From Micromonospora sp. FIMYZ51 (GTDB lineage: Bacteria > Actinomycetota > Actinomycetes > Mycobacteriales > Micromonosporaceae), in contig NZ_CP134706.1 in assembly GCF_038246755.1 (NCBI RefSeq), forward strand, positions 1,550,001-1,614,000: a stretch of 64,000 nucleotides of DNA. Direction: 5' to 3'. Each line of letters begins with the position of its first letter. Position 1 is the stretch's first letter. Position numbers and translations under genes: made by a program. This document shows positions 2,748 through 46,994 of this stretch, piece by piece. The notes beneath the pieces were generated by a model, which was given only the letters and a program-made list of their open reading frames with translations, was not told the DNA's origin and made no database searches.

Positions 2748-2804
2748 GTTAACAAGGGGCCCTTTTACTACACGAGGCGTTAATAAGGGGCCCTTCCTTA
2801 CACC
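2748..2804 (+). repeat. GGGGCCC palindromic element, copy A (double unit)
   Basis: Two units, at 2748-2770 and 2779-2804, follow the pattern GTTAAnAAGGGGCCCTT and end CCTTACACC. The right end touches the stop codon of the PhoD-like gene (2805-2807, minus strand). The 32 bases 2781-2812 recur exactly at 37071-37102. In the PhoD transcript the palindrome could fold as a short terminator-like hairpin. Confidence 0.85.
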
Positions 2805-4508
2805 TCAGCTGGTGAGGCGGTGGCGGGCTACTTCGCGGAGGTGACCGTCGCTGGTGGTGCCCTCGATGATCACTTCGGCGGTGCGGGCGGCGTGGGTGAG
2901 GGTGGCCACCGCGTTGCCGAAGTACGGGCCGGCCAGTTTGCGCCACCTGAACAGCGGCCGGGGTACCCCGGCGGAGCGCGCGAGGGCCCGGGTCGCCCCG
3001 ACCGGGCCCGGTGCCCAGCCGAGTCGCATCAGCGGTCGCATGCCGGCCGGTACCTGGTTGTGAAACGGCGAGCAGGTGAGCTGGTGCACCGGGGTGCGTA
3101 CGGCGGGATCGGCGAAGCGGACCCGGGCCACGTACGAGTGGTGCACGTCCCCGGAGAGCACGTTTATCGACGCCGGTGGCGGGTACGCCGGACCGGCGCC
3201 CTTGCGGTCGTCGGGGGTGCCCGGTGTGCCGCTGCCGATGCGGGCGAAGAGTTCGCCGAGGCCCTCGAAGGAGCGGCGGAAGGCACCCCAGTGCTCCAGG
3301 TCGAGGCCGCGCCGCAGCCGCTCGGACAGGGTGGCGACCCACGACCGGGACGAGTCGGCCAGCTTCTCGTTCCACGCCTCGACGTGGTGGATGCCGGGCG
3401 GCAGCAGCCAGGGCAGCGACGAGCCGACCACCAGGTGGTCGTAATCGCCGTGCGCGCGGTCGACGAACCAGGACCACTCGCCGGCCGGCAACATCGCCCG
3501 CCGGCCGGGCTGCAACACCCGACTGCACCGGCTGTCCAGCATCACCAGCCGGGTGCGGCCCAGGTCGAGCGCGTAGCTGAACTGGTACTGCACCGCGCGC
3601 CACCGCTCGGTGTCGTGCGCCAGGTCGGCCTCGGTGTCGACCCGTTCGCCGAACTCGCGCAGCACCTCGGTGGCGTCCTCGGCCGCGCGTACCTTGCCGA
3701 AGACCGGGTCGGCGGTGATCTCGTCGGGGTCGAGGTTGCCCAGGTGCTGGTAGACCCAGTAGGAGGCCAGCCCGCTGGCGATCCGCTCGGCCCACCAGGG
3801 CTGCTGGCGCATGTCGGCCCGCCACGAGGCCGAGGTGTTCCAGTCGTCGATGATCTCGTGGTCGTCGAAGATCATCACGCTCGGCACGGTGGAGAGCAGC
3901 CACCTGATCTCCGGGTCACCCCAGGACTCCAGGTAGAGCTTGGTGTACTCGTCGAAACTGACCACCTGGTCGCTGGGCGCGTCAGCCGGCCGCCGCCGGC
4001 GCCGCCGCAGCAGCCGCTTCACGGTGGGCGAGGTCTCGTCGGCGTAGACCTGATCCCCGAGCATCACCAGCAGGTCCGGCAGGGCGGCCGGGTCGGGGTC
4101 GGCCAGGATCCGCCGGGCGTACGCGTCGAGCGCGTCCGGCGGCAATTTGCGGGTGGTGGCGTGCTGGGTGGTCTCCCGGCAGGAGCCGAAGAGCAACCGG
4201 ACGGGCTGGTCCCGGTCGTCGGCGGCGCGGGTCCGGATCACGCTTGGCGGGTAGCGGCCGTCGGGCAGCGGCCAGACCACCTCGTCGTCGATGAGCACCT
4301 CGTAGGTCGTGGCGCTGTCCGGGGTGAGCCCCGCCACCACCACCAGCGCGTAGTGGTGGCCGTACGCGGAGAAGGTGGGGGCCGTGCCGCTGGCGCCGCC
4401 GGCCGTGCGGACGGTGACCACCGCCGGTGCCGTCGTCTCGACCCACACGGTGGCCCGCGCGCCGACCACCCGGCGCAGCAGGGGGCCGATGAGCAGCTCG
4501 GCGGGCAT
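2805..4508 (-). CDS. PhoD-like alkaline phosphatase / phosphodiesterase
   Basis: A 567-residue metallophosphatase of the PhoD type. An N-terminal fibronectin-like strand region (about 1-95) is followed by the catalytic fold: R-L-L-F-G-S-C-R near 104-111, GDQVYAD at 151-157, FDDHEIIDDWN at 214-224 and LSGDVHHSY near the C-terminus. These supply the metal ligands of the family. No signal peptide or twin-arginine motif is seen, so unlike classical secreted PhoD it is probably cytoplasmic. The ATG at 4506-4508 follows a GGAGG ribosome site. It is divergent from ftsY with 144 bp between starts. The substrate (phosphomonoester or phosphodiester) cannot be told from sequence. The 3' end abuts a repeat element. 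Confidence 0.88.
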   Translation of the reverse strand: MPAELLIGPLLRRVVGARATVWVETTAPAVVTVRTAGGASGTAPTFSAYGHHYALVVVAGLTPDSATTYEVLIDDEVVWPLPDGRYPPSVIRTRAADDRDQPVRLLFGSCRETTQHATTRKLPPDALDAYARRILADPDPAALPDLLVMLGDQVYADETSPTVKRLLRRRRRRPADAPSDQVVSFDEYTKLYLESWGDPEIRWLLSTVPSVMIFDDHEIIDDWNTSASWRADMRQQPWWAERIASGLASYWVYQHLGNLDPDEITADPVFGKVRAAEDATEVLREFGERVDTEADLAHDTERWRAVQYQFSYALDLGRTRLVMLDSRCSRVLQPGRRAMLPAGEWSWFVDRAHGDYDHLVVGSSLPWLLPPGIHHVEAWNEKLADSSRSWVATLSERLRRGLDLEHWGAFRRSFEGLGELFARIGSGTPGTPDDRKGAGPAYPPPASINVLSGDVHHSYVARVRFADPAVRTPVHQLTCSPFHNQVPAGMRPLMRLGWAPGPVGATRALARSAGVPRPLFRWRKLAGPYFGNAVATLTHAARTAEVIIEGTTSDGHLREVARHRLTS

Positions 4509-4652
4509 CCGGAACCTCCAGGTGAGAGAGCTTCATCCTCCACTACCCGGCCGACGGTCGCACCACCGCTGGCTGTGGTCGAAACTACTGCCGCCTGGCG
4601 TGGCGGGAGCGGTGGCTGAGACGTGCTCGCCGGCATCTGACAGGATTTCGGC

Positions 4653-5843
4653 ATGATGGATTACCTCCTCATCGCTCTCGCCCTGCTCGGCGTGCTGATC
4701 CTCGGCGGCATCGGGCTGGTCGTGCCGAGGTTGCGTCGGCGGGCGGAACCGCCGCTGCCGCGCACCGAGGTCGACACCCGGGCGGAGGAGGAGCTCGCCG
4801 GACCGCCGGTGCAGGCGCCGGAGAGCGAGCTGTCCACCGGCATCCTGGTCGAGCCGCCGCCGGTCATCGAGGCACCGGCACCGACCGTCGAGGTACCCGA
4901 GCCCACCGCCGGCCGGCTGGTGCGGCTGCGGTCCCGGCTGTCCCGCTCGCAGAACGCCCTCGGCAAGGGGCTGCTCGGCCTGCTCAGCCGCGACCGGCTG
5001 GACGAGGACGTCTGGGAGGAGATCGAGGACAGCCTGATCACCGCCGACGTGGGGATCGACGCCACCCGCGAGATCGTCGACCGGCTGCGCGAGCGGACCC
5101 GGGTGCTGGGCACCCGCTCGGCCGCCGAGCTACGCGCCCTGCTCGCCGCCGAGCTGGTGAACGCGCTCGACCCGGCACTGGACCGCTCGCTGCGTACCGC
5201 GCCCAAGGAGGGGGTGCCGGCGGTGCTGCTTGTGGTCGGGGTCAACGGCGCCGGCAAGACCACCACCTGCGGCAAGATCGCCCGGGTGCTCATCGCCGAC
5301 GGTCGCAGCGTGCTGCTCGGTGCGGCCGACACCTTCCGCGCCGCCGCCGCCGACCAGCTGGAGACCTGGGCCGGGCGGGTCGGTGCGGAGACCGTCCGCG
5401 GCCCGGAGGGTGCCGACCCGGCAAGCGTCGCGTTCGACGCGGTCCGGCGCGGCATCGACACCGGCGTGGACACCGTGCTCGTCGACACCGCCGGTCGCCT
5501 TCAGAACAAGGTCGGCCTGATGGACGAGCTGGGCAAGGTCAAGCGGGTGGTGGAGAAGCACGGCCCGATCGACGAGACACTGCTGATCCTCGACGCGACC
5601 ACCGGGCAGAACGGTCTGGAGCAGGCCCGCGTCTTCACCGAGGTGGTGAACGTCACCGGCGTGGTGCTCACCAAGCTCGACGGCACCGCCAAGGGCGGCA
5701 TCGTGATCGCCGTGCAGCGCAAGCTCGGCATCCCGGTGAAGCTGGTCGGCCTCGGCGAGGGCCCGGACGACCTGGCGCCGTTCGATCCCGCGCAGTTCGT
5801 CGACGCGCTGCTGGGTACCGAAGCCCCCGGTCCGACCGCGTAA
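4653..5843 (+). CDS. ftsY: Signal recognition particle receptor FtsY
   Basis: A 396-residue SRP GTPase receptor that docks ribosome-SRP complexes at the membrane. It starts with one hydrophobic helix (residues 3-24) and an acidic, proline-rich linker to about 85, as in actinobacterial FtsY. The N domain follows, then the G domain: GVNGAGKTTT (P-loop, about 197-206), D-T-F-R-A-A-A, DTAGRLQ and TKLDGTAKGG. Two ATG codons are adjacent (4653 and 4656); either could initiate. It pairs functionally with ffh at 15022. A phosphotransferase-like gene follows 81 bp downstream. Length and motifs are normal. Confidence 0.97.
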   Translation: MMDYLLIALALLGVLILGGIGLVVPRLRRRAEPPLPRTEVDTRAEEELAGPPVQAPESELSTGILVEPPPVIEAPAPTVEVPEPTAGRLVRLRSRLSRSQNALGKGLLGLLSRDRLDEDVWEEIEDSLITADVGIDATREIVDRLRERTRVLGTRSAAELRALLAAELVNALDPALDRSLRTAPKEGVPAVLLVVGVNGAGKTTTCGKIARVLIADGRSVLLGAADTFRAAAADQLETWAGRVGAETVRGPEGADPASVAFDAVRRGIDTGVDTVLVDTAGRLQNKVGLMDELGKVKRVVEKHGPIDETLLILDATTGQNGLEQARVFTEVVNVTGVVLTKLDGTAKGGIVIAVQRKLGIPVKLVGLGEGPDDLAPFDPAQFVDALLGTEAPGPTA

Positions 5844-5924
5844 CCTCGGGTGACCAGAGAAGACCGCGCGTACGCGGGTTGGCGCGATCCGAGCCACCCG
5901 TCGCAGCGCCTCGGGAGACCGTAC

Positions 5925-6713
5925 GTGACTTCGCAGGAGATCCCCCTGCACGGCGGGAACGTGAGCACCGTCGTCCGGGTGGGCGACACGGTCCGGCGCA
6001 ACGCCGGACCGTGGACGCCGTCGGTGCACGCCCTGCTGCGACACCTGGAGTACGTCGGGTTCACCGGCGCGCCCCGGGCGCTCGGCATGGACGAGCGCAA
6101 CCGCGAGGTGCTGTCGTACCTGGAGGGGGAGTGCGGGGAGTACCCGCTGGCCCCGCACTGGGTGACCGACGAGGCGCTGGTCACCGTCGCCACCATGCTC
6201 CGGATGTTCCACGACGCCCAGTACGGCTTCGCGCCGCCGCCCGGCGCGGTGTGGCGCTCGTTCGGCCCGCCGCCGCCGGACACCGAGGTCATCTGCCACC
6301 ACGACGCCGCGCCGCACAACGTGATCTGGCGGCCGGACGGCACCCTCGGGTTGATCGATTTCGACCTGGCCTCACCCGGGGCGCGGATCTACGACGTGGC
6401 GTACGCGGCCTGGACCTGGGTGCCGATCTTCTCCGACCGGGACTCGATCACCCTGGGCTGGAAGCACCCGGACCGCCCGCGTCGGCTGCGGCTCTTCGCC
6501 GAAGCGTACGGGTTGATCCCGCGCGACCGGCACCGGCTGATCCGGACCATTCGGAAACGGATCGTGGACCACGTCGAGGGCATCCGCCGGATGGCCGCCG
6601 CCGGTGAGCCCGCCTTCGTCCGGATCGTGCACAAGGGCCACCTGCGCCGGCCCATGCGGGACCTGCGGCTGCTCGACTACGAACGCCAGATCCTTGAGGA
6701 CGCCCTGCGCTGA
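5925..6713 (+). CDS. Aminoglycoside-phosphotransferase-fold protein
   Basis: A 262-residue protein of the APH / choline kinase-like fold. The catalytic loop is seen as C-H-H-D-A-A-P-H-N-V-I-W and the magnesium-binding segment as L-I-D-F-D-L-A-S. The GTG at 5925 was preferred over an in-frame GTG at 5850 because GGGAGA lies at correct spacing before it and the following T-S-Q-E-I-P-L-H-G-G-N matches where I expect the family to begin. The nucleotide-binding lobe is short. Its substrate is unknown: it may be a resistance kinase or a housekeeping small-molecule kinase. Location just after ftsY suggests a stable chromosomal role rather than acquired resistance. Confidence 0.8.
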   Translation: MTSQEIPLHGGNVSTVVRVGDTVRRNAGPWTPSVHALLRHLEYVGFTGAPRALGMDERNREVLSYLEGECGEYPLAPHWVTDEALVTVATMLRMFHDAQYGFAPPPGAVWRSFGPPPPDTEVICHHDAAPHNVIWRPDGTLGLIDFDLASPGARIYDVAYAAWTWVPIFSDRDSITLGWKHPDRPRRLRLFAEAYGLIPRDRHRLIRTIRKRIVDHVEGIRRMAAAGEPAFVRIVHKGHLRRPMRDLRLLDYERQILEDALR

Positions 6714-6728
6714 TCCCCCACGGGGATC
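6712..6728 (+). terminator. Short hairpin after the phosphotransferase gene
   Basis: GATCCCC-CAC-GGGGATC forms a 7-bp stem with a 3-nt loop overlapping the stop codon. No T-run follows, so termination is only plausible. Confidence 0.4.
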
Positions 6729-6808
6729 GACCGGCATTCCGTCGGGGTATCGACCGGCACCGACCGGCTGATCCGCCCCCGTCCATGTCACCGAGGCGAG
6801 CAACGTTC

Positions 6809-6845
6809 TTCACACGTCCGAAACAACCCGTCACGATCCGGAAAC
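6809..6845 (+). promoter_or_regulatory. GlnR box upstream of amt
   Basis: The pattern TTCAC-n6-GAAAC-n5-GTCAC-n6-GAAAC is visible, close to the actinobacterial GlnR consensus of two GTnAC-n6-GAAAC sites in tandem. The second site (GTCAC at 6830, GAAAC at 6841) is perfect. It lies 112 bp upstream of the amt start. GlnR is known to activate amtB operons under nitrogen limitation in Streptomyces, so this predicts nitrogen control of amt-glnK-glnD. Confidence 0.78.
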
Positions 6846-6956
6846 CAGCCGGGGACCCTGGGTGAAACAGCCGGCTACCAGGCTTCCGCGCAACCGGCGT
6901 ACGGGCGATGCTGCGCGATGCCGGGAGGGAGGGAAAACAACCCGAGAGGAGGCAGC

Positions 6957-8649
<1,693 letters not shown>

Positions 8650-8660
8650 GAACACCGTCG

Positions 8661-11055
8661 ATGACCTCGTTGACCGAGCGGGCAGCCGCAGAACCCAATG
8701 GCGACGCGGACCTGCTGGTCAACGAGGTCGTCGGAATACCAGCCGGTACCGGTGCCAGCGCGCGCCGGGCCCGGGCGGACGCGTACGACGCCTGGCTGGC
8801 CCGGCTGATGCCGGACCGGCCGGGCGTCGCGCTGCTCGCGGTCGGCGGGCTGGGGCGGCGGCAGTGCGCGCCCTACGGCGACCTCGACCTGGTGCTGGTG
8901 CACGCCGGGCTGCCCGGGGTCGACGAACTCGCCGCCCAGCTGTGGTACCCGATCTGGGACGCCGGGCTGCGGCTGGACCACTCGGTGCGTACCGTCGCCG
9001 AGGCACTCTCGGTCGCCCAGGACGACGTCAAGGTGGCCCTCGGGCTGCTCGACGCCCGGCTCGTCGCGGGCGACCCCGAACTGGCGGAAACGCTGATCCG
9101 CAGCGCCACCGACCACTGGCGGCGCACCGCCGTACGCCAACTGGCTCCGCTGCGGGAGAGCACCGCCGCCCGCTGGCAGGCCCACGGCGAGCTGGCGTTC
9201 CTGCTCGAAGGCGACCTCAAGGAGGCGGCCGGCGGCCTGCGCGACGTCGGCATCCTGCGCGCCATCGCGATCGCCGGGATCACCGACGCGCTGCGTCCCG
9301 CCGTGCACGCCGCGCACCTGCGCCTGCTGGACACCCGCGACGCACTGCACCAGCAGGTCGGCCGGCGGGTCGACCGGCTGCTCGCCCAGGAACGCGCCGG
9401 GGTGGCCGCGCTGCTCGGCCTCCGCCACACCGCACCCGGCGGGCCGGACGCGGAACTGGGTGAAACGGACACGGACCGGGGAGAACCGGACGCGGACCCG
9501 CCTCGCCCCCGGCGACCCGAGCCCGACGCGGCGCGGCGACCCGAGGAGGGCGACGGCGACGCCCTGCTGCGCCGGGTGGCCGGCGACGCCCGGACCGTAA
9601 GCCATGCCCTGGACGATGCCTTCCGCGCCGCCGACCGGCTCCGCTCCGGCCGCCGCCGGGGCGCCGACGGACGACCGCTGCGCCGGCCGGTCGCCCGGGA
9701 CGTGGTCGAGCACGACGGCGAACTGGTGCTGGCCCGGACCGCCATCGGTGCCCGCCCCGATCCCAGCCTCTCGCTGCGGGTGGCCGCCGCCGCGGCCACC
9801 ACCGGGCTGCCGATCGCGCGGGCCACCTGCGAGTGGCTGGCCGTCTACTGCCCGCCGCTGCCGACGCCCTGGCCGGCCGAGGCGCGGTCCGCGCTGACCA
9901 CGCTGCTCGGCGCCGGCGCGGGCCTGCTCCCGGCCTGGGAGACCTGCGACCGGTACGGATTGATCGACGGCTGGCTGCCGGAGTGGACCCGGCTGCGTAG
10001 CCTGCCCCAGCACAACCCGGTGCACCGGTTCACCCTCGACCGGCATCTGGTGCAGACCGCCTTCGAAGCCAGCCGGCACACCCGCGACGTGGACCGTCCC
10101 GACCTGCTGCTGCTCGGCGCCTTCCTGCACGACATCGGCAAGGGGCTACCCGGTGACCACTCCACGGTCGGCGCGCCGATCGCCGAGGAGATCGCCGCCC
10201 GGGTCGGCCTGCCCGCCGTCGAGGCGAAGCTGATCGGCACGCTCGTCCGGCTGCACCTGCTGCTGCCGGAGGTGGCGACCCGCCGGGATCTCGCCGACCC
10301 GGTCACCATCGCCCGGGTGGCCGAGGCGGTCGGCGACGCCACCACCCTCGACCTGCTGTACGCACTGGTCCGCGCCGATGCCGCCGCCACCGGCCCGGCC
10401 GCCTGGTCGGACTGGAAGGGTCGGCTGGTCGCCGAACTGGTCGCCCGGGTCCGCACCACGCTGGACACCGGCGCCGTACCCGAGCCGCCGGCACCGGACC
10501 CGACGTTGGTGGCGGGGCCGCTGCCGGTCGTACACCTGACCGGGGACCGGGTGGCGGTGGCCGCAGCCGACCGGCGTGGCCTGCTCGCGACGGTGGCCGG
10601 TTGCCTGGCCCTGCATCGCCTGGAGGTGGTCGCCGCCGACGCCTCGACGGTGGACGGGCGGGCGTTGGTGGAGTGCCGGGTGCAGCCGCGCTACGGGTTG
10701 GCCCCGGACCCGGTGGCGCTCAGCGCGGACCTGCGCCGCGCGGTCGGCGGCGACGTGTCGGTGACCCAGCGACTGCGCGGCCGGGCGCTGGCCGCCCGGG
10801 GCCGGCGCCCAGCCGAGGGTGGTCTGGCACCGCGACGCCGCCACCGACGCGGTGCTGCTGGAACTGCGGGCGGCCGACGCCGCCGGCCTGCTCTACCGGG
10901 TGACCAGCGCGCTGGACGCGGCCGGCGCCCAGGTCCGCGCCGCCCGGATCGCCACCCTCGGCGGCGACGTGGTGGACGCCTTCTACCTGGTCGGCGGCTG
11001 GCCGGCCGCCGACGAGCGCACCCGGATCGAAGCCGCCATCCTCGCCGCCGTGTAG
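8661..11055 (+). CDS. glnD: PII uridylyl/adenylyltransferase GlnD, frameshifted near its 3' end
   Basis: Bifunctional enzyme that modifies and demodifies GlnK. The nucleotidyltransferase motif ends G-D-L-D-L with Asp74 and Asp76; the HD domain has L-H-D-I-G-K with His490/Asp491; an ACT domain follows at about 630-690. Residues about 254-300 are a Pro/Asp/Arg-rich low-complexity insert. Near 10790-10815 (CCCGGGGCCGGCGCCCAG) the reading frame is lost: the original frame continues as arginine-rich nonsense to 11078, while the true second ACT domain, starting V-V-W-H-R-D-A and ending I-L-A-A-V, lies one frame over and stops at 11055. Removing one base from the GC run restores a normal protein. 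Either a real frameshift or a consensus error; the span given is the restored gene. Confidence 0.88.
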
Positions 11056-11080
11056 GTGTCAGGAAGGGCCCTTGTTAACG
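11056..11080 (-). repeat. GGGGCCC palindromic element, copy B (single unit)
   Basis: Read on the minus strand the unit is GTTAACAAGGGCCCTTCCTG followed by ACAC, directly touching the glnD stop codon at 11053-11055. It is a single unit with one G fewer in the core than the other copies. It lies exactly at the junction between glnD and the inserted ABC/two-component cluster. Confidence 0.75.
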
Positions 11081-11207
11081 CCCACCGCAGGCAGCCGAAC
11101 GAGGGCCGGCGTACGCGTGGCGAACGGTGAGCGTACGCGTCGGGACGTAGCTGCGTTGCCGCTCGCGGGGTGATGTGCCCCGGTGCACGTGACGGCAGGC
11201 TCGGGGC

Positions 11208-12099
<892 letters not shown>

Positions 12100-12110
<11 letters not shown>

Positions 12111-12921
12111 TTGGTCCGCCGAAATCGTCAAGCTCGTCCGCCGGCCGGCCTTCTGGCTGTTGATCGGCATCGCGCTCGTGATCTCCCTGACCTTCACCTA
12201 CCTGCTGCCGTACGCGGCCATCGTCGGCGGGACGGGCGGCCCGAACAGCGATCGGACGCTGCCGATGCTCCTGCCGGACCAGTTGGTCGGCAACAGCATC
12301 GGTGGGCTGCCGATCTTTCTCGGCGCGATCGTGTTGATCATCGGCGTGCTCGTCGTCGGCGGCGAGTATGGCTGGGGCACCTGGAAGACCATCCTCACCC
12401 AGGGCCCGACCCGGTTGGAGGTGTACGCAGGCAAGCTGTTCACCCTGGCCGCCGCCGCGCTCGTCGTGGTGCTCGCCGTCTTCGCCGTGGGTGCGGCGGC
12501 CAGTTCGCTGGTCGCGGTCGCCGAGTCGCAGCCCGTGCGCTGGCCGTCCGGCGGCGACCTGCTGGCCGGAGTAGGTGCGGGGTGGCTCGTGGCCGTGACC
12601 TGGGCCATGCTCGGTGGAGTGCTGGCGGTCGCGATGCGGTCGGTGGCGTTGCCCGTCGGTCTCGGGCTGGTCTGGCTGCTCGCGGTGCAGAACCTGCTCG
12701 CCGGGGTGGCCGCGCCGTTGCTGGACTGGGTGGCCGAGTTGCAGAAGGGGCTGCCCGGGCCCAACGCCGGCTCGCTGGTGGCGGCACTCGGCGCGCCCAG
12801 CGACACGCCGGGGGTCGCGGCGACGGTCGGTGCCGGGCAGGCGACATTGGTCCTGGCCGGCTACCTCGTTGCGTTCGTGCTGCTCGGCGGGCTGCTGTTG
12901 CAGCGGCGAGACATCGCCTAG
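12100..12921 (+). CDS. ABC transporter permease
   Basis: A 273-residue membrane protein with about six hydrophobic segments (near 18-40, 70-95, 118-140, 160-185, 188-210 and 250-268) and the E-Y-G-W-G-T-W-K cytoplasmic motif characteristic of ABC-2 type permeases. The start ATG at 12100 lies inside the end of the ATPase gene, which sets their coupling. It is expected to dimerise and pair with the ATPase at 11208. The kinase gene follows after 22 bp, so the four genes probably form one transcription unit. Confidence 0.9.
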
Positions 12922-12943
12922 CCAGGCGGAGACGAAAGGCTCG

Positions 12944-14179
12944 ATGATGCGTAACCGGACCGGTTGGCGACGCGATCTGGTGGACGTGATCCTCGCCCTG
13001 GCGCTGGTCGCGCTCGGGCTGGTCGGCACCGCGCCGGCCGGGGCGAACCAGGGCGTGCCCGTCGGGCCGGCCGGGTACCCGCTGGTGGTGGTGGCCGCGC
13101 TGGCCCTGACGCTGCGCCGGCGCTGGCCGTTGCTCACGTTGGCGATCGTGACCGGGGCGGTCCTGTCCTACCTGCTGCTCGGCAACCCGTATGGGCCGAT
13201 CCTGGTGTCGCTGCTCGTCGCGGTGCACACGGTCGCGGCGCATCTGCCGACGCGGGACGCGATGGTGGGCTGCGGCGTGGCACTCGTCGCCCTGCTCATC
13301 GGGATCTTCGTGGGCCGGGGCGCGCCCGGTTGGCCGGGGCTGATGCCCGTCGCGGCCTGGGTGGTGGTGCCGTTCGCGGTCGGCACGGTGGTCCGACTCG
13401 GGCGGGAGACCGCGGCTCGGACGCGCCTGGAGGAGGTCCGGCGGCTGGCCGACACCGAACGGCTGCGAGTGGCCCGCGAGGTGCACGACGTGGTCGGCCA
13501 CGGACTCGCGGCGATCCACATGCAGGCGCAGATCGCGCTGCATCTGCTCGACCGGAAGCCGGAGCAGGCGGAAATCGCGTTGACCGCGATCAGCCGGACC
13601 AGCAAGGAGGCGCTGGACGAACTGCGGGTCACGCTGCGCGTCGTCAGGCGCAACGAGCGGACCGGGCAGGACGGACGAGAGGAGCGGGACGAGGTCGCCG
13701 TTGAGCGGTCTGGAATGCCCGGCCTGGCCCGGTTGCCGTACCTGCGCGACCGGCTGGCCGGTGCCGGCCTGCCGGTGACCGTCGAGACCGTCGGCGAGCC
13801 GCGTCCGCTCCCCGTCGCCATCGACCTCGCGGCCTACCGGGTGGTGCAGGAGGCGCTGACCAACGTGCTGCGCCACGCCGGTCCGGCGACCGCCACCGTC
13901 CGGGTCGACTACCAGCCGGACCGGCTCGTCGTGGTGGTGTCCGACACCGGCCGGGGAGCGGCATCGGACGCGGTCACCGGACACGGTTTAGGGCTCGCCG
14001 GCATGCGGGAGCGGGTCGCCGCGCTCGGCGGAACCTTCCAGGCCGGTGCGCGGAGTCAGACCGGCACGAACAACCAGACCGGCGCGACCAGCCGGACCGA
14101 CGCCGCGAGTCAGGCCGGTGCGGCGAGCGGCGGCGGGTTCCGGGTGTGCGCGACACTGCCCGTGGAGGGAGCCGGATGA
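12944..14179 (+). CDS. Two-component sensor histidine kinase (HisKA_3, NarL-type partner)
   Basis: A 411-residue kinase. Four to five transmembrane helices occupy residues 11-150 with almost no extracellular loop, so the signal is probably sensed within the membrane or through the ABC permease (intramembrane-sensing style). The phosphoacceptor is His181 in R-E-V-H-D-V-V-G-H-G. The ATPase domain follows, with Q-E-A-L-T-N-V-L-R-H, D-T-G-R-G and G-H-G-L-G-L-A-G-M. Residues about 368-397 form a Gln/Thr/Ser/Ala-rich low-complexity insert close to the C-terminus. Leu349 is encoded by a rare TTA codon (13988-13990), which in actinomycetes can tie translation to the bldA tRNA. Its stop overlaps the regulator start (ATGA). 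Confidence 0.93.
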   Translation: MMRNRTGWRRDLVDVILALALVALGLVGTAPAGANQGVPVGPAGYPLVVVAALALTLRRRWPLLTLAIVTGAVLSYLLLGNPYGPILVSLLVAVHTVAAHLPTRDAMVGCGVALVALLIGIFVGRGAPGWPGLMPVAAWVVVPFAVGTVVRLGRETAARTRLEEVRRLADTERLRVAREVHDVVGHGLAAIHMQAQIALHLLDRKPEQAEIALTAISRTSKEALDELRVTLRVVRRNERTGQDGREERDEVAVERSGMPGLARLPYLRDRLAGAGLPVTVETVGEPRPLPVAIDLAAYRVVQEALTNVLRHAGPATATVRVDYQPDRLVVVVSDTGRGAASDAVTGHGLGLAGMRERVAALGGTFQAGARSQTGTNNQTGATSRTDAASQAGAASGGGFRVCATLPVEGAG

Positions 14180-14832
14180 TCAGTGTGTTGCTCGCCGACG
14201 ACCAGGACCTGATCCGGATCGGTCTGCGTGCCCTGTTGGAGAGCGAGGACGGCGTCACGGTCGCGGGCGAGGCTGCCGACGGGCTCGGTGCGCTGGAACT
14301 GGCCCGGCGGGTACGCCCCGACGTGGTACTGATGGACGTCCGGATGCCGGGGATCGACGGCATCGAGGCGACCCGGCGGATCGTCGCCGATCCGGAGCTG
14401 ACCGGTACCCGGGTCGTCGTGCTGACCACCTTCGAGTTGGACGAGTACGTCTTCGACGCGTTGCGGTACGGGGCCAGTGGTTTCCTCACCAAGGACACCC
14501 CGCCGGCCGAACTGCTGCGGGCGATCCGGCTGGTCGCCGAGGGGGAGGCGCTGCTGTCGCCCTCGGTGACCAGGCGGGTGGTTCGGGAGTTCGCCCACCG
14601 CCCGGCTCGGGTGTCCCGCCCGCACCCCCGGCTGAACACCCTCACCGAGCGGGAACGGGAGGTGCTGGGGTTGGTCGGGGAGGGGCTGAGCAACGGTGAG
14701 ATCGCCGAGCGGTTGGTGCTCAGCCCGGCCACCGCGCGTACCCACGTCAGCCGGGCCATGGTCAAACTCGGCGCGCGGGACCGGGCCCAACTGGTGGTCT
14801 TCGCGTACCAGTCGGGGGTGGTCGAGCCGTGA
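14176..14832 (+). CDS. Two-component response regulator, LuxR/NarL type
   Basis: A 218-residue regulator. The receiver domain has the acidic pair D8-D9, phosphoacceptor Asp54 (V-L-M-D-V-R-M-P-G) and Lys106 (F-L-T-K-D). The C-terminal LuxR helix-turn-helix covers about 152-208, with L-T-E-R-E-R-E-V-L and L-S-P-A-T-A-R-T-H-V. It overlaps the kinase stop by 4 bp (ATGA), so the two are cognate and coupled. It most likely controls the ABC genes upstream; no clear operator was recognised. Confidence 0.95.
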   Translation: MISVLLADDQDLIRIGLRALLESEDGVTVAGEAADGLGALELARRVRPDVVLMDVRMPGIDGIEATRRIVADPELTGTRVVVLTTFELDEYVFDALRYGASGFLTKDTPPAELLRAIRLVAEGEALLSPSVTRRVVREFAHRPARVSRPHPRLNTLTEREREVLGLVGEGLSNGEIAERLVLSPATARTHVSRAMVKLGARDRAQLVVFAYQSGVVEP

Positions 14833-15021
14833 CCGCGGTCTGACCGCCGAGGTGGAGATCTCGACCGGCTGGCGCTTTCGTCATGATCCACCCGTCGTGG
14901 GCGGCGGTGAGGTGGCTGGCGCGGAGCATGGCTGTGGGTGGCGGGCTACCCTAGCGGTGACTGGACACCTCTGTCCGGTCGCGTTCGTGCTCGCCGGGAC
15001 ACTGACAATCGGGATGTTCGC

Positions 15022-16593
15022 GTGTTTGACACCTTGAGTGACCGCCTCTCCGGGATCTTCACCAAGCTCCGCGGCAAGGGACGCCTCACCGACGCCGACA
15101 TCGACGCGACGGCGCGCGAGATCCGCCTCGCGTTGCTTGAGGCCGACGTCGCGCTCCCGGTCGTCAAGGGCTTCATCGGCAACGTCAAGGAGCGGGCCCG
15201 CAGCGCGGAGGTCTCCCAGGCGCTCAACCCGGCCCAGCAGATCATCAAGATCGTCAACGAGGAGCTGATCGCTGTCCTCGGTGGCGAGGGACGCCGGCTC
15301 CAGTTCGCCAAGCAGCCGCCGACCGTGATCATGCTCGCCGGCCTCCAGGGCTCCGGCAAGACCACGCTCGCCGGCAAGCTGGCCCGCTGGCTCAAGGCCC
15401 AGGGGCACCAGCCGCTGCTGGTCGCCGCCGACCTCCAGCGTCCCAACGCCGTCGGGCAGCTCCAGGTGCTCGGTGGTCGGGCCGGCGTCGAGGTGTACGC
15501 CCCGGAGCCCGGCAACGGCGTCGGCGACCCGGTGCAGGTGGCGAAGTCCTCGATCGAGCACGCCCGTCGGGCCGCCCGTGACGTGGTCATCGTCGACACC
15601 GCTGGCCGGCTCGGTATCGACGCCGAGATGATGCAGCAGGCGGCCGACATCCGGGACGCGGTCGCACCGGACGAGGTCATCTTCGTCATCGACGCGATGG
15701 TCGGCCAGGACGCGGTGCGTACCGCCGAGGCGTTCCGGGACGGCGTCGGCATCACCGGTGTGGTGCTCTCCAAGCTCGACGGCGACGCCCGGGGCGGCGC
15801 GGCGCTGTCGGTCCGCGAGGTGACCGGCCAGCCGATCCTCTTCGCCTCCACCGGCGAGAAGCTGGAGGACTTCGATGTCTTCCACCCCGACCGGATGGCC
15901 AGCCGGATCCTCGGCATGGGCGACGTCCTCACTCTGATCGAGCAGGCCGAGGCGGCCTTCGACACCGATCAGAAGGAGAAGATGACCGCCAAGCTGATGG
16001 GCGGCGAGCAGTTCACCCTGGAGGACTTCCTCGACCAGCTCATCGCGGTACGCCGGATGGGCCCGATCGCCAACGTGCTGGCCATGATGCCGGGCATGGG
16101 GCAGGTCAAGGACCAGCTCGCCGAGCTGGACGACAAGCACTTCGACCGGATCACCGCGATCATCCGGTCGATGACCCCGGCCGAGCGCAGCAACCCGAAG
16201 ATCATCAACGGTTCCCGGCGGGCCCGGATCGCCAACGGCTCCGGGGTCACCGTGATGGACGTCAACCAGCTGCTCAACCGCTTCAACGACGCGCAGAAGA
16301 TGATGAAGCAGATGGGCGGCATGATGGGCCTGCCGGGCGGCGGTCGGCGCAAGGCCACCAAGAGCCCGAAGAACAAGCGTAAGGGCACCAAGGGCGGTGG
16401 CCGGCCGCGCAGCGGTGCGGGCACCCGGGCGGCGCAGGGCGGGCTGCCGGGCGGCTTCCCCGGTGACATGCCGCAGCTGCCGCCGGGGATGAACCCGGAC
16501 GATCTGGCGGCCGGTCAGGGCCTTCCGCCGGGCTTCAAGCTGCCGAAGATCGACTTCAACAAGTTCGGCAAGGGCGGCCAGCCGCCGCGCTGA
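15022..16593 (+). CDS. ffh: Signal recognition particle protein Ffh
   Basis: A 523-residue SRP54 GTPase that binds signal sequences and 4.5S RNA. N domain at 1-90, G domain with GLQGSGKTT (about 106-114), DTAGRLG, S-K-L-D-G-D-A-R-G-G; methionine-rich M domain about 300-430. After the M domain an unusually long Gly/Pro/Lys-rich tail (about 455-523) ends F-N-K-F-G-K-G-G. GTG at 15022 gives V-F-D-T-L-S-D-R-L, the family start. It lies directly downstream of the inserted two-component cluster, so it must have its own promoter in the 189-bp gap 14833-15021, where no clear promoter could be assigned. The SRP RNA gene was not found nearby. Confidence 0.97.
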   Translation: MFDTLSDRLSGIFTKLRGKGRLTDADIDATAREIRLALLEADVALPVVKGFIGNVKERARSAEVSQALNPAQQIIKIVNEELIAVLGGEGRRLQFAKQPPTVIMLAGLQGSGKTTLAGKLARWLKAQGHQPLLVAADLQRPNAVGQLQVLGGRAGVEVYAPEPGNGVGDPVQVAKSSIEHARRAARDVVIVDTAGRLGIDAEMMQQAADIRDAVAPDEVIFVIDAMVGQDAVRTAEAFRDGVGITGVVLSKLDGDARGGAALSVREVTGQPILFASTGEKLEDFDVFHPDRMASRILGMGDVLTLIEQAEAAFDTDQKEKMTAKLMGGEQFTLEDFLDQLIAVRRMGPIANVLAMMPGMGQVKDQLAELDDKHFDRITAIIRSMTPAERSNPKIINGSRRARIANGSGVTVMDVNQLLNRFNDAQKMMKQMGGMMGLPGGGRRKATKSPKNKRKGTKGGGRPRSGAGTRAAQGGLPGGFPGDMPQLPPGMNPDDLAAGQGLPPGFKLPKIDFNKFGKGGQPPR

Positions 16594-16659
16594 GCGTGTC
16601 GGTGACGGCGGGTGACTTCATCATCGCCTAGGGTGATGTCGCCCCTGGAAGGAGGAGTC

Positions 16660-17238
16660 ATGACCGTGGCGCCCATCCTGCCCGAGCGGTCGGAGTGGAC
16701 GGTTGACGACCTCGGCGACCTGCCGAAGGACCTTCCGTACGAACTGATCAACGGAAGGTTGATCGTGCCGTCCCCCACCGCGCTCCATCAAGACCTCTGT
16801 GTCCGACTGCTGCTCGCGCTCGAAGTCAACTGCCCGGCGGAATACCTGGTAAGCATCGACCTGTCGATGCGGGTGGACCGCCGCAACGAGCTTCGGCCCG
16901 ACGTGGTCGCCATCCGGCGTGAGCACGCCGACCGCTCGCCCGTACCGGTCGAGGACGCCCTGCTGGCCGTCGAGGTCGTCTCGCCCTCCTCGACCTTCCG
17001 TGACCTCTACGACAAGGCCCGGGTCTACGCCCGCGCCGGAGTGCGCACCTACTGGGTGGTCGACCCGCTGCACGACAAGATGACCCTTACCGAGTACGTG
17101 CGCGGCCCGTCCGGCGAGTACGAGGTGGCCACCCACACCGACGACCTGTTCGTCACCGAGCGACCGTGGAAGGTGTCGGTCGACCTGCCGGCGTTTACCG
17201 CCCGGCGGGCGGGGCTTCTCGCCAACGACGGGCAGTGA
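16660..17238 (+). CDS. Uma2-family (DUF820) PD-(D/E)XK nuclease-like protein
   Basis: A 192-residue Uma2 protein. Family features: Y-E-L-I-N-G-R-L near residue 28, E-L-R-P-D-V-V (catalytic Asp), then L-A-V-E-V-V-S-P-S-S (the E-x-K-like core) and K-A-R-V-Y-A-R-A-G-V. ATG 16660 follows a strong GGAAGGAGG site. Uma2 proteins have a restriction-endonuclease fold and are abundant in actinomycetes and cyanobacteria, but their biological role is not established. It is not obviously part of an operon with ffh or the amidohydrolase, although all point the same way. Confidence 0.85.
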   Translation: MTVAPILPERSEWTVDDLGDLPKDLPYELINGRLIVPSPTALHQDLCVRLLLALEVNCPAEYLVSIDLSMRVDRRNELRPDVVAIRREHADRSPVPVEDALLAVEVVSPSSTFRDLYDKARVYARAGVRTYWVVDPLHDKMTLTEYVRGPSGEYEVATHTDDLFVTERPWKVSVDLPAFTARRAGLLANDGQ

Positions 17239-17256
17239 TCGGGTAGGACTGTGCGC

Positions 17257-18336
17257 ATGGCTCTGCATGTGCGCGGTGTGCTCCTGCCCGACGACGAGGT
17301 CCGGGATCTGTGGTTGGTCGGCGACCGGGTCACCTTCGACCCGGTGCCCGGCGCGGAGACGGTCGCCGAGCGCGGCTTCGTCCTGCCCGGCCTGGTCGAC
17401 GCGCACTGCCACATCGGCATCGCCCGAGGTGGTGCGCCGATCACCTCGCTGGATCAGGCCCGCACGCTGGCCCGTACCGATCGGGACGCGGGGGTGCTGG
17501 CGATCCGGGACGCCGGCTCGCCGTACCCGTATCCGGAGCTGGAGGACGAGCCCGACCTGCCCCGGCTGGCCCGCGCCGGCCGGCACATCGCGCCGCCGAA
17601 GCGGTACCTGCGCGACATCGGTGTGGAGGTCGGTGCGGCCGAGGTGGCGGCGACCGTGGCGGAGCAGGCCGCCGCCGGCAACGGCTGGGTGAAGCTGGTC
17701 GGTGACTGGATCGACCGGGGCGTCGGTGACCTGGCCCCGGCCTGGGACGCCGACACGATGACCGCCGCCGTGGCCGCCGCGCACGCCGCCGGGGTACGCG
17801 CCGCCGTGCACACCTTCAGCGAGTCGGCGGTGGAGATCATGGTGCGGGCCGGGGTGGACTCGGTCGAGCACGGCACCGGGCTGAGCCTCGACCTGATCGA
17901 CCTGATGGCCCGGCAGGGCACCGCGCTGATCCCCACGATGATCAACATTCGTACCTTCGGCCACATCGCCGACCAGGCCCGACCCAAGTTCCCCGGGTAC
18001 GCCGACCACATGCTCGCCCTGCGTGACCGCTTCCCGCAGGTGGTCCGGGCCGCGTACGAGGCCGGGGTGCCGATCTACGTCGGCACCGACGCGGGCGGGG
18101 GAATCGACCACGGCATGGCCGCCGAGGAGATGCTGCTGCTGCACGACGAGGCCGGCCTGGCCGCCGAGGACGTGCTCGCCGCCGCCTCCTGGGGTGCCCG
18201 CGCCTGGCTCGGCTTCCCCGGTCTGGTCGAGGGCGGTCTCGCCGACCTCGTCGTCTACTCCGACGACCCGCGTCGGGACCTGCGGGCGGTACGCGAGCCG
18301 GCCCGCATCGTCCTGCGCGGACGGGTCATCCGCTGA
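17257..18336 (+). CDS. Amidohydrolase-superfamily protein
   Basis: A 359-residue metal-dependent hydrolase of the imidazolonepropionase/prolidase-like amidohydrolase group. Visible are the N-terminal metal ligands V-D-A-H-C-H (His50, His52), a candidate bridging lysine in G-W-V-K-L-V-G-D, histidines in V-H-T-F and V-E-H-G-T, and the late Asp in G-T-D-A-G-G-G. The C-terminal strand segment is typical of this superfamily. ATG 17257 is favoured over GTG 17251 because GTAGGA is well spaced before it. The substrate is unknown. Its last 11 bp overlap the 3' end of the convergent gene at 18326. Confidence 0.87.
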   Translation: MALHVRGVLLPDDEVRDLWLVGDRVTFDPVPGAETVAERGFVLPGLVDAHCHIGIARGGAPITSLDQARTLARTDRDAGVLAIRDAGSPYPYPELEDEPDLPRLARAGRHIAPPKRYLRDIGVEVGAAEVAATVAEQAAAGNGWVKLVGDWIDRGVGDLAPAWDADTMTAAVAAAHAAGVRAAVHTFSESAVEIMVRAGVDSVEHGTGLSLDLIDLMARQGTALIPTMINIRTFGHIADQARPKFPGYADHMLALRDRFPQVVRAAYEAGVPIYVGTDAGGGIDHGMAAEEMLLLHDEAGLAAEDVLAAASWGARAWLGFPGLVEGGLADLVVYSDDPRRDLRAVREPARIVLRGRVIR

Positions 18337-18868
18337 CCTGTCGCACGTCGAGCTGGTACTGCGCTTCGACCTGGAACCCGTGACCGTCGGTGCCGCCGAA
18401 GCTGAGCTGGTGCATGCCGGGCGAAGGTGGTGGCACCAGGCTCCACAGTCCCCAGCAGGAGACCTGCATCGGCCACGGCCAGTCGGTGACGACGTTGTTG
18501 AAGAAGCCCCGAACCGGGAAGGAGGCGGGTGAGCCCACCGGGTACAGCGGCAGCTGCGCGCCGTCGAGCTGAGCGAATCCGCTGGCCTCTGCCCACGGCT
18601 CGGCCGGCTCTGCGGTGCGGCCAACCTCCCACCAGCAGAAGGCCGGGAAGAACAGCGTTCGCCCGGCCGGCACCACGCACTGCCGGGTCACCGCGCCGCC
18701 GAACGTGCCGGCCAGGAACCAGACGTCGTCGGGCTGGTGACGCCCAGCGTCCCGACCGGTGCGGTCCTTGATGGGGTTGTTCGGCTGCCGGTGGGCGGCC
18801 ACCCAGCGCACCCAGCGGGCGGCCAGCTCGGCCAGATCCCAACGCAAGTCCGGGTTGGCGGAGAACAT
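18326..18868 (-). CDS. Conserved-looking protein of unknown function
   Basis: A 180-residue protein I do not recognise by name. It is rich in Trp and Phe, has no signal peptide, and carries a distinctive core V-W-F-L-A-G-T-F-G-G, then R-Q-C-V-V-P-A-G-R-T-L-F-F-P, which reads as a conserved structural motif rather than a chance frame. A later F-F-N-N-V-V-T-D-W-P-W segment and a C-terminal beta-rich end follow. Codon use matches the neighbours. Start ATG at 18866-18868. It is convergent with the amidohydrolase (11-bp overlap) and divergent from proS, with a 70-bp inverted repeat in the intergenic space. Confidence 0.72.
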   Translation of the reverse strand: MFSANPDLRWDLAELAARWVRWVAAHRQPNNPIKDRTGRDAGRHQPDDVWFLAGTFGGAVTRQCVVPAGRTLFFPAFCWWEVGRTAEPAEPWAEASGFAQLDGAQLPLYPVGSPASFPVRGFFNNVVTDWPWPMQVSCWGLWSLVPPPSPGMHQLSFGGTDGHGFQVEAQYQLDVRQVSG

Positions 18869-18933
18869 GGCGGCCGATGCTAGTGGTACCGCGCCCGGTC
18901 GCGCTGCCCCGCCGTGCCCGCTGCCCACCCCCG

Positions 18934-19003
18934 CGATCTTGCACTTTTCGTCGCCGTAAACCAGCCCATACATGACTTTTCGGCGACCGAAACTGCAAGA
19001 TCG
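18934..19003. repeat. 70-bp imperfect inverted repeat upstream of proS
   Basis: Arms at 18934-18956 and 18981-19003 match at 20 of 23 positions; each begins CGATCTTGCA and ends TCGCCG. The 24-bp spacer repeats ACTTTTCG. This could be a MITE-like element or a regulatory hairpin in the divergent interval between the unknown gene and proS. Confidence 0.75.
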
Positions 19004-19069
19004 GCGCGGTGGAGGGGCGGGCGGGGCGGGCAGGGGTGGGGGAGGGGAGTGGGCATAGGATGTGCGGTC

Positions 19070-20476: not shown

Positions 20477-20477
20477 C

Positions 20478-20535
20478 GTGCAAGGAAGGGCCCCCTGTTA
20501 ACGCCTCCGGTATAGGAAGGGCCCCTTTCTAACAG
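20478..20535 (-). repeat. GGGGCCC palindromic element, copy C (double unit)
   Basis: Two units at 20482-20503 and 20513-20535, read on the minus strand as GTTAGAAAGGGGCCCTTCC and GTTAACAGGGGGCCCTTCC, joined by a GGAGGC linker. The end reading CTTGCAC lies one base from the proS stop codon (20474-20476). It fills the gap between proS and the DUF402 gene. Confidence 0.85.
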
Positions 20536-20555
20536 TTCATCGATAGGGTCGGAGC

Positions 20556-37037: not shown

Positions 37038-37102
37038 GTTAATAGGGGGCCCTTCCTCTACAGCAGGCGTTAATAAGGGGCCCTTCCTTACACCTCAGCT
37101 GG
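37038..37102 (+). repeat. GGGGCCC palindromic element, copy D (double unit)
   Basis: Units at 37038-37060 and 37069-37094 follow the same pattern as copy A. From 37071 to 37102 it is identical to 2781-2812, including bases that in copy A form the stop codon and last codon of PhoD. It lies 104 bp after the membrane-protein gene and its right end points to rpsB, not to a stop codon. Confidence 0.85.
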
Positions 37103-45089: not shown

Positions 45090-45348
45090 TGTCGGTCCTT
45101 CCCTCGCGATCGGATCTCCGGTTAGTCTGGCACGCCCCGTACCGGCCCTGGCGCAGGGTCCGGCCGATCAAGGAAAAGCGATGCCAGCCGGCGGGGTTCA
45201 CCGCTGCCGGTCGAGCCCCTGACCACCCGGGCCGATCGACCTGTTCAGGCGGGCCGGAGGGGACTACCGGCGTCGCGGAACGGCGACCACACTGCCTCCG
45301 GTAGCGTTCTGGCGTACGCCTTGATTGTCTTGATGAGGGGGAACTGCG

Positions 45349-46932
45349 GTGCGAGTGACCGGTACCGGGCACGCGAGCATGCGGATCGACACGGCTGCGG
45401 GCAGCATCCTCTGCGACCCGTGGGTCAACCCGGCCTACTTCGCCTCCTGGTTCCCGTTCCCGGACAACTCCCAGCTCGACTGGGAGGCGCTCGGTGACGT
45501 CGACTACCTGTACGTCTCCCACCTGCACCGGGACCACTTCGACGCGGCGCACCTGAAGCGGTACGTGTCGAAGAAGGCCACCGTGCTGCTGCCCGAGTTC
45601 CCCACCTCGGAGATGGAGGACGAGTTCCGCGAGCTGGGCTTCACGAAGTTCCTGAAGACCCGCAACGAGGAGGTCGTCGAGCTGGACGGCGGCCTGAAGA
45701 TCATGATCCAGGCGTTGACCAGCCCGACCGACGGCCCGATCGGCGACTCCTCGCTCTGGGTGGAGTACGACGGCGTCCGCCTGCTCAACCAGAACGACGC
45801 CCGCCCGACCGACCTGAGCGTCTTCGCCGAGTTGGGCCACGTGCACGCGCACATGCTCCAGTTCTCCGGCGCGATCTGGTACCCGATGGTCTACGAGCTG
45901 CCGCAGGCGGCGAAGACCGCGTTCGGCAAGCAGAAGCGCGATCGGCAGTTCGACCGTACCTGGCGCTACATCGACGACCTGAAGGCCGACCACGTCTTCC
46001 CGATCGCCGGCCCGCCCTGCTTCCTCGACGACGAGTTGTGGCAGTTCAACGACATCTTCGGCGACGAGGGGAACATCTTCCCCGATCAGTCGGTCTTCCT
46101 GGCCGAGTACGCCAAGGTCGGTGGGACCAACGGCATCGTGCTGCTGCCCGGCAGCGTCGCCGAGGTCACCACCTCCGGGGCGACGACGACCCACCCGCAG
46201 CCGGTGGCGGAGTTCTTCGCCAACAAGGTCGCGCATCTGGAGGAGATGCGCGAGCGCAAGCGGCCGATCATTGAGGCGGAGAAGGCATCCTGGCGGCACC
46301 CTGAGATCGACGTGCTGAAGGAGCTGAAGCAGCGGATCGAGCCACTGCTCGACGAGTCGATCTACCTGGCCAAGGGGGTCGGCGGTCCGGTCCGCTTCGA
46401 CCTGGTCGGTTACGACGGCGAGAGCATCGAGTCGATCGTGGTGGACTTCCCGGGCAAGCAGGTGCGGTCGTACGCCGACGAGAAGGTGCGCTACCGGTTC
46501 CGGACCGAGCGGGCGCTTGTCGAACACCTGCTGCACATCGGTGAGGTGGACTGGGTCAACTCGCTCTTCCTCTCCTGCCGCTTCTCGGCGGCCCGGATCG
46601 GCCAGTACAACGAGTTCGTGTACGCCTTTTTCAAGTGCCTTTCCACCGAGCGCCTCCAGTACGCCGAGGGCTGGTACGACGAGCACGAGCGGGCGGTCGA
46701 CGCCGAGGACATCACCATCGGCGACTGGACGGTGCAGCGACGCTGCCCACACCTGAAGGCGGATCTGAGCCGGTTCGGCATCGTCGAGGGGGACCAGCTC
46801 ACCTGCCAGCTGCACGGCTGGCGCTTCGACCTGCCCAGCGGGCGCTGCCTGACCAGTGTCGGCCACAAGATCCGCGCACACCGCGTCGGCGAGGAAACCC
46901 CCGTCCCGGAGACCGTCGACCGGTCGAGCTGA
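45349..46932 (+). CDS. Metallo-beta-lactamase-fold protein fused to a C-terminal Rieske domain
   Basis: 527 residues. The N-terminal UlaG-like MBL domain has S-H-L-H-R-D-H-F-D (His58, His60, Asp62, His63) and a long middle region. The C-terminal Rieske [2Fe-2S] domain is complete: Cys466-x-His468 and Cys486-x2-His489 (C-P-H-L ... C-Q-L-H-G-W). This combination recalls CMP-N-acetylneuraminate hydroxylase, except that there the Rieske domain is N-terminal. No membrane segments. GTG start behind GAGGGGG. It is convergent with an FAD oxidoreductase, a possible electron-transfer or pathway partner (inference). Substrate unknown; it could be a monooxygenase rather than a hydrolase. Confidence 0.85.
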   Translation: MRVTGTGHASMRIDTAAGSILCDPWVNPAYFASWFPFPDNSQLDWEALGDVDYLYVSHLHRDHFDAAHLKRYVSKKATVLLPEFPTSEMEDEFRELGFTKFLKTRNEEVVELDGGLKIMIQALTSPTDGPIGDSSLWVEYDGVRLLNQNDARPTDLSVFAELGHVHAHMLQFSGAIWYPMVYELPQAAKTAFGKQKRDRQFDRTWRYIDDLKADHVFPIAGPPCFLDDELWQFNDIFGDEGNIFPDQSVFLAEYAKVGGTNGIVLLPGSVAEVTTSGATTTHPQPVAEFFANKVAHLEEMRERKRPIIEAEKASWRHPEIDVLKELKQRIEPLLDESIYLAKGVGGPVRFDLVGYDGESIESIVVDFPGKQVRSYADEKVRYRFRTERALVEHLLHIGEVDWVNSLFLSCRFSAARIGQYNEFVYAFFKCLSTERLQYAEGWYDEHERAVDAEDITIGDWTVQRRCPHLKADLSRFGIVEGDQLTCQLHGWRFDLPSGRCLTSVGHKIRAHRVGEETPVPETVDRSS

Positions 46933-46941
46933 GCTCTGGCT

Positions 46942-46994
46942 GTTAAGAAGGGGCCCTTCCTATACACGAGGCGTTAATAGGGGGCCCTTCCTTA
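46942..46994 (+). repeat. GGGGCCC palindromic element, copy E (double unit)
   Basis: Units begin at 46942 (GTTAAGAAGGGGCCCTTCC) and 46973 (GTTAATAGGGGGCCCTTCC), joined by ACACGAGGC as in copy A. It lies between convergent genes. The minus-strand FAD gene reads into it and takes its stop codon (46960-46962) and last 10-11 residues from it. Confidence 0.85.

Follow-up and report, generated by a model that had tools for sequence, protein, structure and literature searches.

Repetitive extragenic palindromic (REP) sequences of the REP/RAYT type and elements derived from IS200/IS605 (REPtrons, PATEs) are hairpin-forming, non-autonomous and located outside genes. The foot of the REP hairpin carries a GTAG-like tetranucleotide, and insertions of the IS200/IS605 type show a replication-strand bias. 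Terminators made of inverted DNA uptake sequences (DUS/USS) place a strong hairpin past the stop codon. Among actinobacterial short repeats at stop/start junctions, the mycobacterial MIRU are longer than the elements described here, tandem, and located at overlapping stop/start codons. In a passage of PMC12306157, 446 of 4,072 predicted Escherichia coli REPs are placed no more than 15 nt from a stop codon, and REPs this close to a stop are said (citing its ref. 17) to stall ribosomes and lower translation. Here, we report a set of short repeats, dispersed in the genomes of Micromonospora and of further genera in the same family, that were noticed in a window of 64,000 bp (positions 1,550,001 to 1,614,000) of the 7.05-Mb single-contig genome of Micromonospora sp. 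FIMYZ51. The repeats form a family with a fixed position and orientation at stop codons, a pairing register supported across genomes and a patchy distribution among species. A limited search of the open-access literature found no paper on this repeat family.

As far as the E. coli stop-proximal REPs are described in that source, the new elements resemble them in being palindromic, dispersed and located in the 3′ regions of mRNAs, in part no more than 15 nt from a stop. They differ in that most sampled Micromonospora copies touch, contain or closely follow the stop, in one orientation, and in being 31-bp dimers able to form one hairpin and often supplying the stop codon. Like REP/RAYT elements, they are extragenic palindromes dispersed in many copies (60 in 1.66 Mb, one of which lies wholly, by more than 30 bp, within a called gene). 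However, FIMYZ51 encodes no Y1 transposase (PF01797), and this family is present in just 2 of 22 element-rich Micromonospora genomes (at least 48 matches), compared with 15 of the 39 others. FIMYZ51 copies also lack a GTAG-like foot, and by eye no conserved foot is seen at 20 loci of two other genera. Unlike IS200/IS605 insertions, the elements show no replichore strand bias (left 12:14, right 20:14, Fisher p = 0.43, with the replichore border placed at 3.4 Mb by eye from GC skew). As to the overlapping stop/start codons of MIRU, several element-free sites at proS read TGA-G-GTG.

Our tentative view is that the most likely function is that of a REP-like, stop-codon-anchored mRNA hairpin, serving as a brake on termination or as a 3′-end stability element. 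In the transcript, unit 1 would pair with unit 2 to give a hairpin starting at or a few nucleotides past the stop codon, and the element would often provide part or all of that codon. It would act as RNA, in the manner of E. coli REP hairpins near stops. The terminating ribosome would have to open the hairpin, which could tune translation termination or mRNA 3′-end stability. Copies may have been spread by a mobilizing activity, perhaps since lost, with some lineages then keeping or homogenizing them and others losing them.

Throughout the FIMYZ51 genome there are 459 matches to GTTAANAAGGGGCCCTT at up to two mismatches, versus one for the reversed control pattern. For anatomy and position, we sampled the window plus 80 segments of 20 kb each from across the chromosome (1.664 Mb). 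Elements were defined by up to three mismatches to one 17-mer, and genes were called with a simple frame-composition gene finder made for this analysis. After removal of 18 hit groups that overlapped a better hit on the opposite strand, 60 elements remained from 78 groups: 56 dimers, three single units and one triple. The unit spacing is 31 bp in 57 of the 58 unit pairs and 29 bp in the remaining one, and the common 52-bp body, read away from the preceding gene, is AAGGAAGGGCCCCTTnTTAACGCCTnnnGTAnAGGAAGGGCCCCTTnTTAAC. Elements are scarcer in the 2.3–5.0 Mb part of the chromosome, which makes up 24% of the sample and holds 6 of the 60 (p = 0.01).

From five copies, the sequence-only reading had noted that in four of them the end reading CCTTnCAC touches or contains the stop codon of a gene, always with the same end facing the gene. 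This orientation holds far beyond chance. The CCTT (AAGG) end lies within 20 bp of the facing gene's stop in 40 of the 60 elements, versus 7.9% of permissible points on both strands (binomial P = 7e-30), and the opposite end does so in 10. A strict window of −10 to +2 from the stop still contains 33 of the 60 elements versus 2.5% of permissible points; it leaves out stops located further within the element, which has stop codons of its own. Enrichment and orientation bias at stops are thus both present genome-wide, confirming the original observation, which extends to two other genera. In detail, at 20 loci of these genera (10 from G203, five from G154 and five from G153) a frame of coding composition ends at −13 to +20 relative to the start of the element in 17, the exceptions being L247, L251 and L260, and at −13 to +2 in 13; these counts were made without a control run.

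Some offsets between stop and element are favored. With the junction written as a slash, +2 occurs in 11 elements (T/AAGG, the element giving two bases of TAA), 0 in five (TGA/AAGG), −5 in eight and +20 in four (TAA inside the element). Among the 41 FIMYZ51 elements with a near facing stop, the stem base is 0–15 nt after the stop in 23 and 18 nt after it in one, and the stop overlaps the stem base in 17, one of which is the single copy at glnD, counted by a shifted frame. The offset of +18 for this copy is a product of the frame shift; the ortholog-like TAG at 11053–11055 directly precedes the element. All three frames are closed within the body in 31 of 56 FIMYZ51 copies versus 10% of shuffles. 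The flank before AAGG has the logo G-G/A-T-G-T/C in FIMYZ51, and a GTGY-like flank is common beside the bodies, including the 19 that have no near facing stop. The availability of GTGY-like words alone fails to account for the offsets.

When compared with the orthologs of M. andamanensis (G031), the FIMYZ51 stop is within three amino acids in 9 of 16 framed rows (loci 1, 2, 3, 4, 7, 10, 11, 16 and 18), and the FIMYZ51 protein is longer by five amino acids at locus 0 and by eight at locus 14. The other five rows differ by 4–290 amino acids, some frames evidently being mischosen, and two further rows had no frame. Where a TAA inside the element serves as the stop (FIMYZ51 loci 0 and 2, M. lutea locus 4), the protein gains a tail encoded by the element (QGRAPY or EGRAPC, for example).

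Read in the gene's direction, unit 1 can pair with unit 2, yielding a single hairpin with a stem of at most 18 bp and a loop of 12 nt. We examined covariation in this register (i + j = 51) by exchanging unit 2 at random between elements of the same genome. The Micromonospora set comprised 200 elements from eight genomes, 56 from FIMYZ51 and 144 copied from census listings and partly picked by eye; the degenerate 52-column census pattern fixes some stem columns, which therefore cannot vary. The elements form 13.21 Watson-Crick pairs of 18 on average, versus 12.98 after shuffling (z = 4.9, and 4.6 on repetition). The other registers tested, including those within a unit, give z from −2.0 to 1.8, with one lacking variance. 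The signal comes from genomes other than FIMYZ51, including G021 (z = 2.1), G022 (2.2), G041 (2.3) and G060 (3.6). A pool of FIMYZ51, G060, G025 and G018, whose elements were not picked for variety, gives z = 3.2.

A second genus has a different stem (AACGGTCCGTT in two genomes) and shows the same register. Its 85 elements from three genomes have 14.67 pairs versus 14.12 (z = 6.9, with at most 2.8 elsewhere), the single genomes giving 5.6 (G203), 3.0 (G154) and 2.1, and pairs 7–44 and 13–38 are found both as G-C and as C-G. An independent tool, applied to 84 rows chosen by coordinate, finds 81.7% of cells paired versus 80.9% in shuffles (reached by 2 of 500) and six pairs with double changes versus 3.9 (4 of 500); slid registers are 49–68% paired. 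In combination, these results support that the two units tend to stay complementary across genomes. Extension of the stem into the flanks is weak and without clear covariation in FIMYZ51 copies.

G-U cells outnumber A-C cells in the sense direction (354 versus 120 in Micromonospora, 89 versus 16 in the second genus), and the mean folding energy is −25.8 kcal/mol in sense and −24.1 in antisense (p = 2.6e-12). We take this sense-strand bias to favor the RNA of the preceding gene as the acting molecule; single-stranded DNA of that strand is the alternative.

The family is patchily distributed. In a census of 61 Micromonospora genomes at up to two mismatches, 28 have matches: 22 with 48–236, one with 14 and five with one to four, and the reversed control pattern gave zero throughout. 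In a family-wide sample of 121 genomes at up to three mismatches, matches occur in 27, from 7 of 44 genera (Micromonospora and six others). Of the six, the two for which sequences were listed (g43 and g45) both have stems of their own. The data support a dispersed repeat family with lineage-specific subfamilies. In M. andamanensis, no copy of the 17-mer was found in 400 kb, and a covariance model run on 851 kb from 43 loci of element-poor species returned two weak matches (E = 0.01 and 0.016), possible remnants at L203 in M. andamanensis and L105 in M. solifontis.

Many of the occupied sites are shared between species. Downstream of proS, an element is at the identical place or within 1–2 nt of it in 15 of 28 species, representing both main clades of the proS tree. 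In 58 kb of G058, five of six elements are at sites occupied in FIMYZ51, as are all seven in 300 kb of M. lutea; one of the sites shared with these two corresponds to the single degenerate glnD unit. Conversely, 6 of 13 FIMYZ51 sites aligned to M. lutea are empty there. Orthologous copies differ at 5.2 of 52 positions (five pairs, G058) and 6.3 (six pairs, M. lutea), versus 7.35 and 8.0 for non-orthologous cross-species pairs. Copies within one genome differ at 7.2–7.3 positions in FIMYZ51, 7.3 in G058 and 6.5 in M. lutea. The intergenic sequence past the element is often not alignable between the compared species. The proS copy of G018 has 5.0 stem differences to the three typed copies of its own genome versus 8.2–11.7 to others, and four of six proS copies are nearest to their own genome's library. 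Because proS copies resemble other copies of the same genome, we infer that concerted change is also at work.

We considered an apparent 50-bp replacement at FIMYZ51 locus 0 as an example of insertion and rejected it, as the element-free sequence aligns by eye to the element and may be a decayed copy. In G058, glnB is followed by an element and other DNA (L246, 8300–8370), where the other compared loci have glnD; a rearrangement junction after glnB may thus coincide with the element.

Several results weigh against a function as an mRNA hairpin. Matches are lacking altogether in 33 of the 61 Micromonospora genomes. In 19 of the 60 sampled copies, including that at 37038 in the window, no called stop faces the element in a stretch spanning 60 bp ahead of the junction and 40 bp past it, and the enrichment between convergent genes (odds ratio 2.4, p = 0.007) is gone after a gap filter (1.3, p = 0.55). 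The pairing gain is small, at 0.2–0.5 pairs per element, and three genomes taken singly show next to none (z = 0.7 in FIMYZ51, 0.6 in G006, 0.8 in G025). In the 84-row set, sliding the register by +1 or +3 raises the covariation score (to 0.119 and 0.090, from 0.087 without a slide). Of the 33 copies listed for G153, 25 have an identical GCACC core in units 1 and 2, so that three center positions stay unpaired; these copies were left out of the pairing statistics. Folding energies of FIMYZ51 copies are almost equal in sense (−21.5) and antisense (−21.3), and G-T pairs are tolerated in single-stranded DNA as well. Shuffling within genomes gives no fewer G-U cells (z = −1.8), so their excess is a property of the consensus, mainly of pairs 3–48 and 17–34. 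The reading as RNA is weakened by this and by the lack of significant covariation in FIMYZ51 alone.

The main rival is a selfish, non-autonomous element, resembling miniature inverted-repeat transposable elements or REPs, which an enzyme would insert at stop codons or at a short GTG-like target, the hairpin and the stop codons merely keeping it harmless. We regard this as a real possibility, short of probable; it overlaps with a function in RNA, and the likelihoods we attach to the two do not sum to one. A selfish origin would be consistent with similar copies that number in the tens to hundreds in certain species and are missing from others, with the species- and genus-specific subfamilies, with the concerted change at proS, where the G018 copy is nearest to those of its own genome, and with the empty M. 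lutea sites. The GTGY-like flank beside FIMYZ51 bodies also fits, as does the presence of TGAGGTGC at several element-free proS sites. Against it, none of the three enzyme families searched follows the repeats. The Y1 transposase distribution is given above. Reverse transcriptase (RVT_1) is absent from FIMYZ51 and occurs in 9 of 22 element-rich versus 9 of 26 other genomes, and IS110 in 21 of 22 versus 21 of 26 (these two comparisons cover 48 of the 61 Micromonospora genomes). We therefore rejected all three as the mobilizer, their presence failing to track the repeats; other transposase families were not searched. No target-site duplication was seen by eye at the compared sites, the flanks of which have diverged, and the missing strand bias and the age of the sites, nearly all of those in G058 and all in M. 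lutea being common to FIMYZ51, also argue against a purely selfish repeat. A more specific combination, which we consider quite unlikely, is a family-wide mobile element that integrates at the stop codon itself in sense orientation, with junctions T/AA, TG/A and TGA/, possibly via a step involving the mRNA or the terminating ribosome. Its RNA hairpin would then be functional and evolve by compensatory changes in hundreds of mRNAs.

Two other suggestions came from the sequence-only reading, a portable terminator and a mobile unit that targets termination hairpins, and neither fits well. A portable transcription terminator or RNA 3′-end protector, selectively maintained where transcription units end, would account for the strong hairpin in the sense strand, the location at gene 3′ ends and the unfiltered enrichment at convergent ends. 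Intrinsic (rho-independent) terminators likewise have a strong hairpin past the stop, but the elements lack a U-tract, with a mean of 0.64 T and at most two in the 8 nt past the stem (56 elements). A consensus terminator scan of positions 1000–20900 of the window, which include three copies, called none. Native hairpins are not significantly replaced (p = 0.29, 21 comparisons at 16 FIMYZ51 loci); the direction would fit replacement, with a median hairpin z of −0.36 at element-free orthologs versus +0.28 after FIMYZ51 elements. Moreover, terminator stems usually start further from the stop codon than the element stem does. On balance we find this explanation unlikely, and the evidence speaks against an intrinsic terminator, not against a role at the 3′ end. 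Targeting of termination hairpins fits one locus, where the element follows a hairpin in both FIMYZ51 and G058, but it is no rule, as at FIMYZ51 loci 5 and 7 the element is located between the stop and a strong hairpin beyond it, which also counts against a terminator function. The stop codon itself is the better anchor. Least probable, in our judgment, is a reading in which a dimeric DNA-binding protein occupies two adjacent sites spaced by three helical turns, the element acting at the DNA level. Each unit is pseudo-palindromic, the spacing is nearly invariant at 31 bp (57 of 58 unit pairs), a genome-wide change of the core could mirror co-evolution with a protein, and within-unit z reaches 2.8 and 2.2 in the second genus. 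However, covariation is stronger between units than within them: z is 4.9 versus −1.1 to 1.8 in Micromonospora (one register without variance) and 6.9 versus at most 2.8 in the second genus.

REP-like hairpin repeats are known in kind, and we rate the anchoring at stop codons and the patchy distribution as the points of real interest. If the stop-codon hairpin reading is true, one short RNA module, fixed relative to the stop, marks many gene ends in a genus of antibiotic producers. Its role would then be open to natural comparison, as related species have up to about 230 matches or none. A sharp question of targeting also arises, namely what positions a repeat of 52 bp in sense orientation only a few bases from stop codons. 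For studies of how RNA structure evolves, the stems specific to each lineage are a ready data set.

The five copies first noticed in the window are all present, four as dimers with 31-bp spacing and one as a single unit; a 20-bp unit pattern has eight matches in the window at up to three mismatches and none in 100 shuffles. The contact with stop codons stood for four of them: the copies at 2748, 11056 and 20478 start 0–5 nt past the facing gene's stop and that at 46942 encloses it, but no called gene faces the copy at 37038. In detail, the 52-bp body at 2748–2799 (minus strand, two units with a 31-bp period) has its CCTT end 5 nt from the stop (TGA, 2805–2807) of a PhoD-like phosphatase gene (2805–4508, minus strand), which the element abuts; its sense flank is CTGAGGTGT/AAGG. 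The degenerate single unit (11059–11079, plus strand) is directly past the ortholog-matching stop (TAG, 11053–11055) of glnD, which encodes PII uridylyltransferase (8661–11055, plus strand). In this gene, one frame is open only to about codon 705 and the ortholog-like C-terminus is in another, the break being either a frame shift or a sequencing error. The body at 20482–20533 (plus strand) follows a proS-like class-II aminoacyl-tRNA synthetase gene (19070–20476, plus strand), 5 nt beyond its stop (TGA, 20474–20476). The body at 37038–37089 (minus strand) lies upstream of rpsB, with no called gene facing its CCTT end, and the aligned site of M. andamanensis lacks the element. The body at 46942–46993 (minus strand) contains the stop of an FAD-dependent amine oxidase-like gene (46960–48582, minus strand). 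A search with 4227 Rfam models gave no match in the window at the gathering score, and none up to E = 5 in 2650–2900.

Some further arrangements were noted. In L015 (2863–3002), two elements are back to back, each at its own gene's stop, and close pairs on opposite strands also occur in other genera. A tRNA-Val gene has an element next to its 3′ end (L055). Other hairpin repeats, TTGATCATGAGGTTA-like and TTGATCAAGAAGTTT-like and with inverted copies, occur near proS in several Micromonospora species, downstream in L176, L179 and L171 and on the other side in L164, L167 and L171. Intergenic inverted repeats around GATCTTGCA and TGCAAGATC are found in L226 (15970–16089) and downstream of proS in G054. 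FIMYZ51 has 10 IS110 matches with an identical score. Two of its copies, the 1.48-kb IS110-type elements at L226 (16090–17565) and L074 (4889–6366), are 99.6% alike and located away from the repeats.

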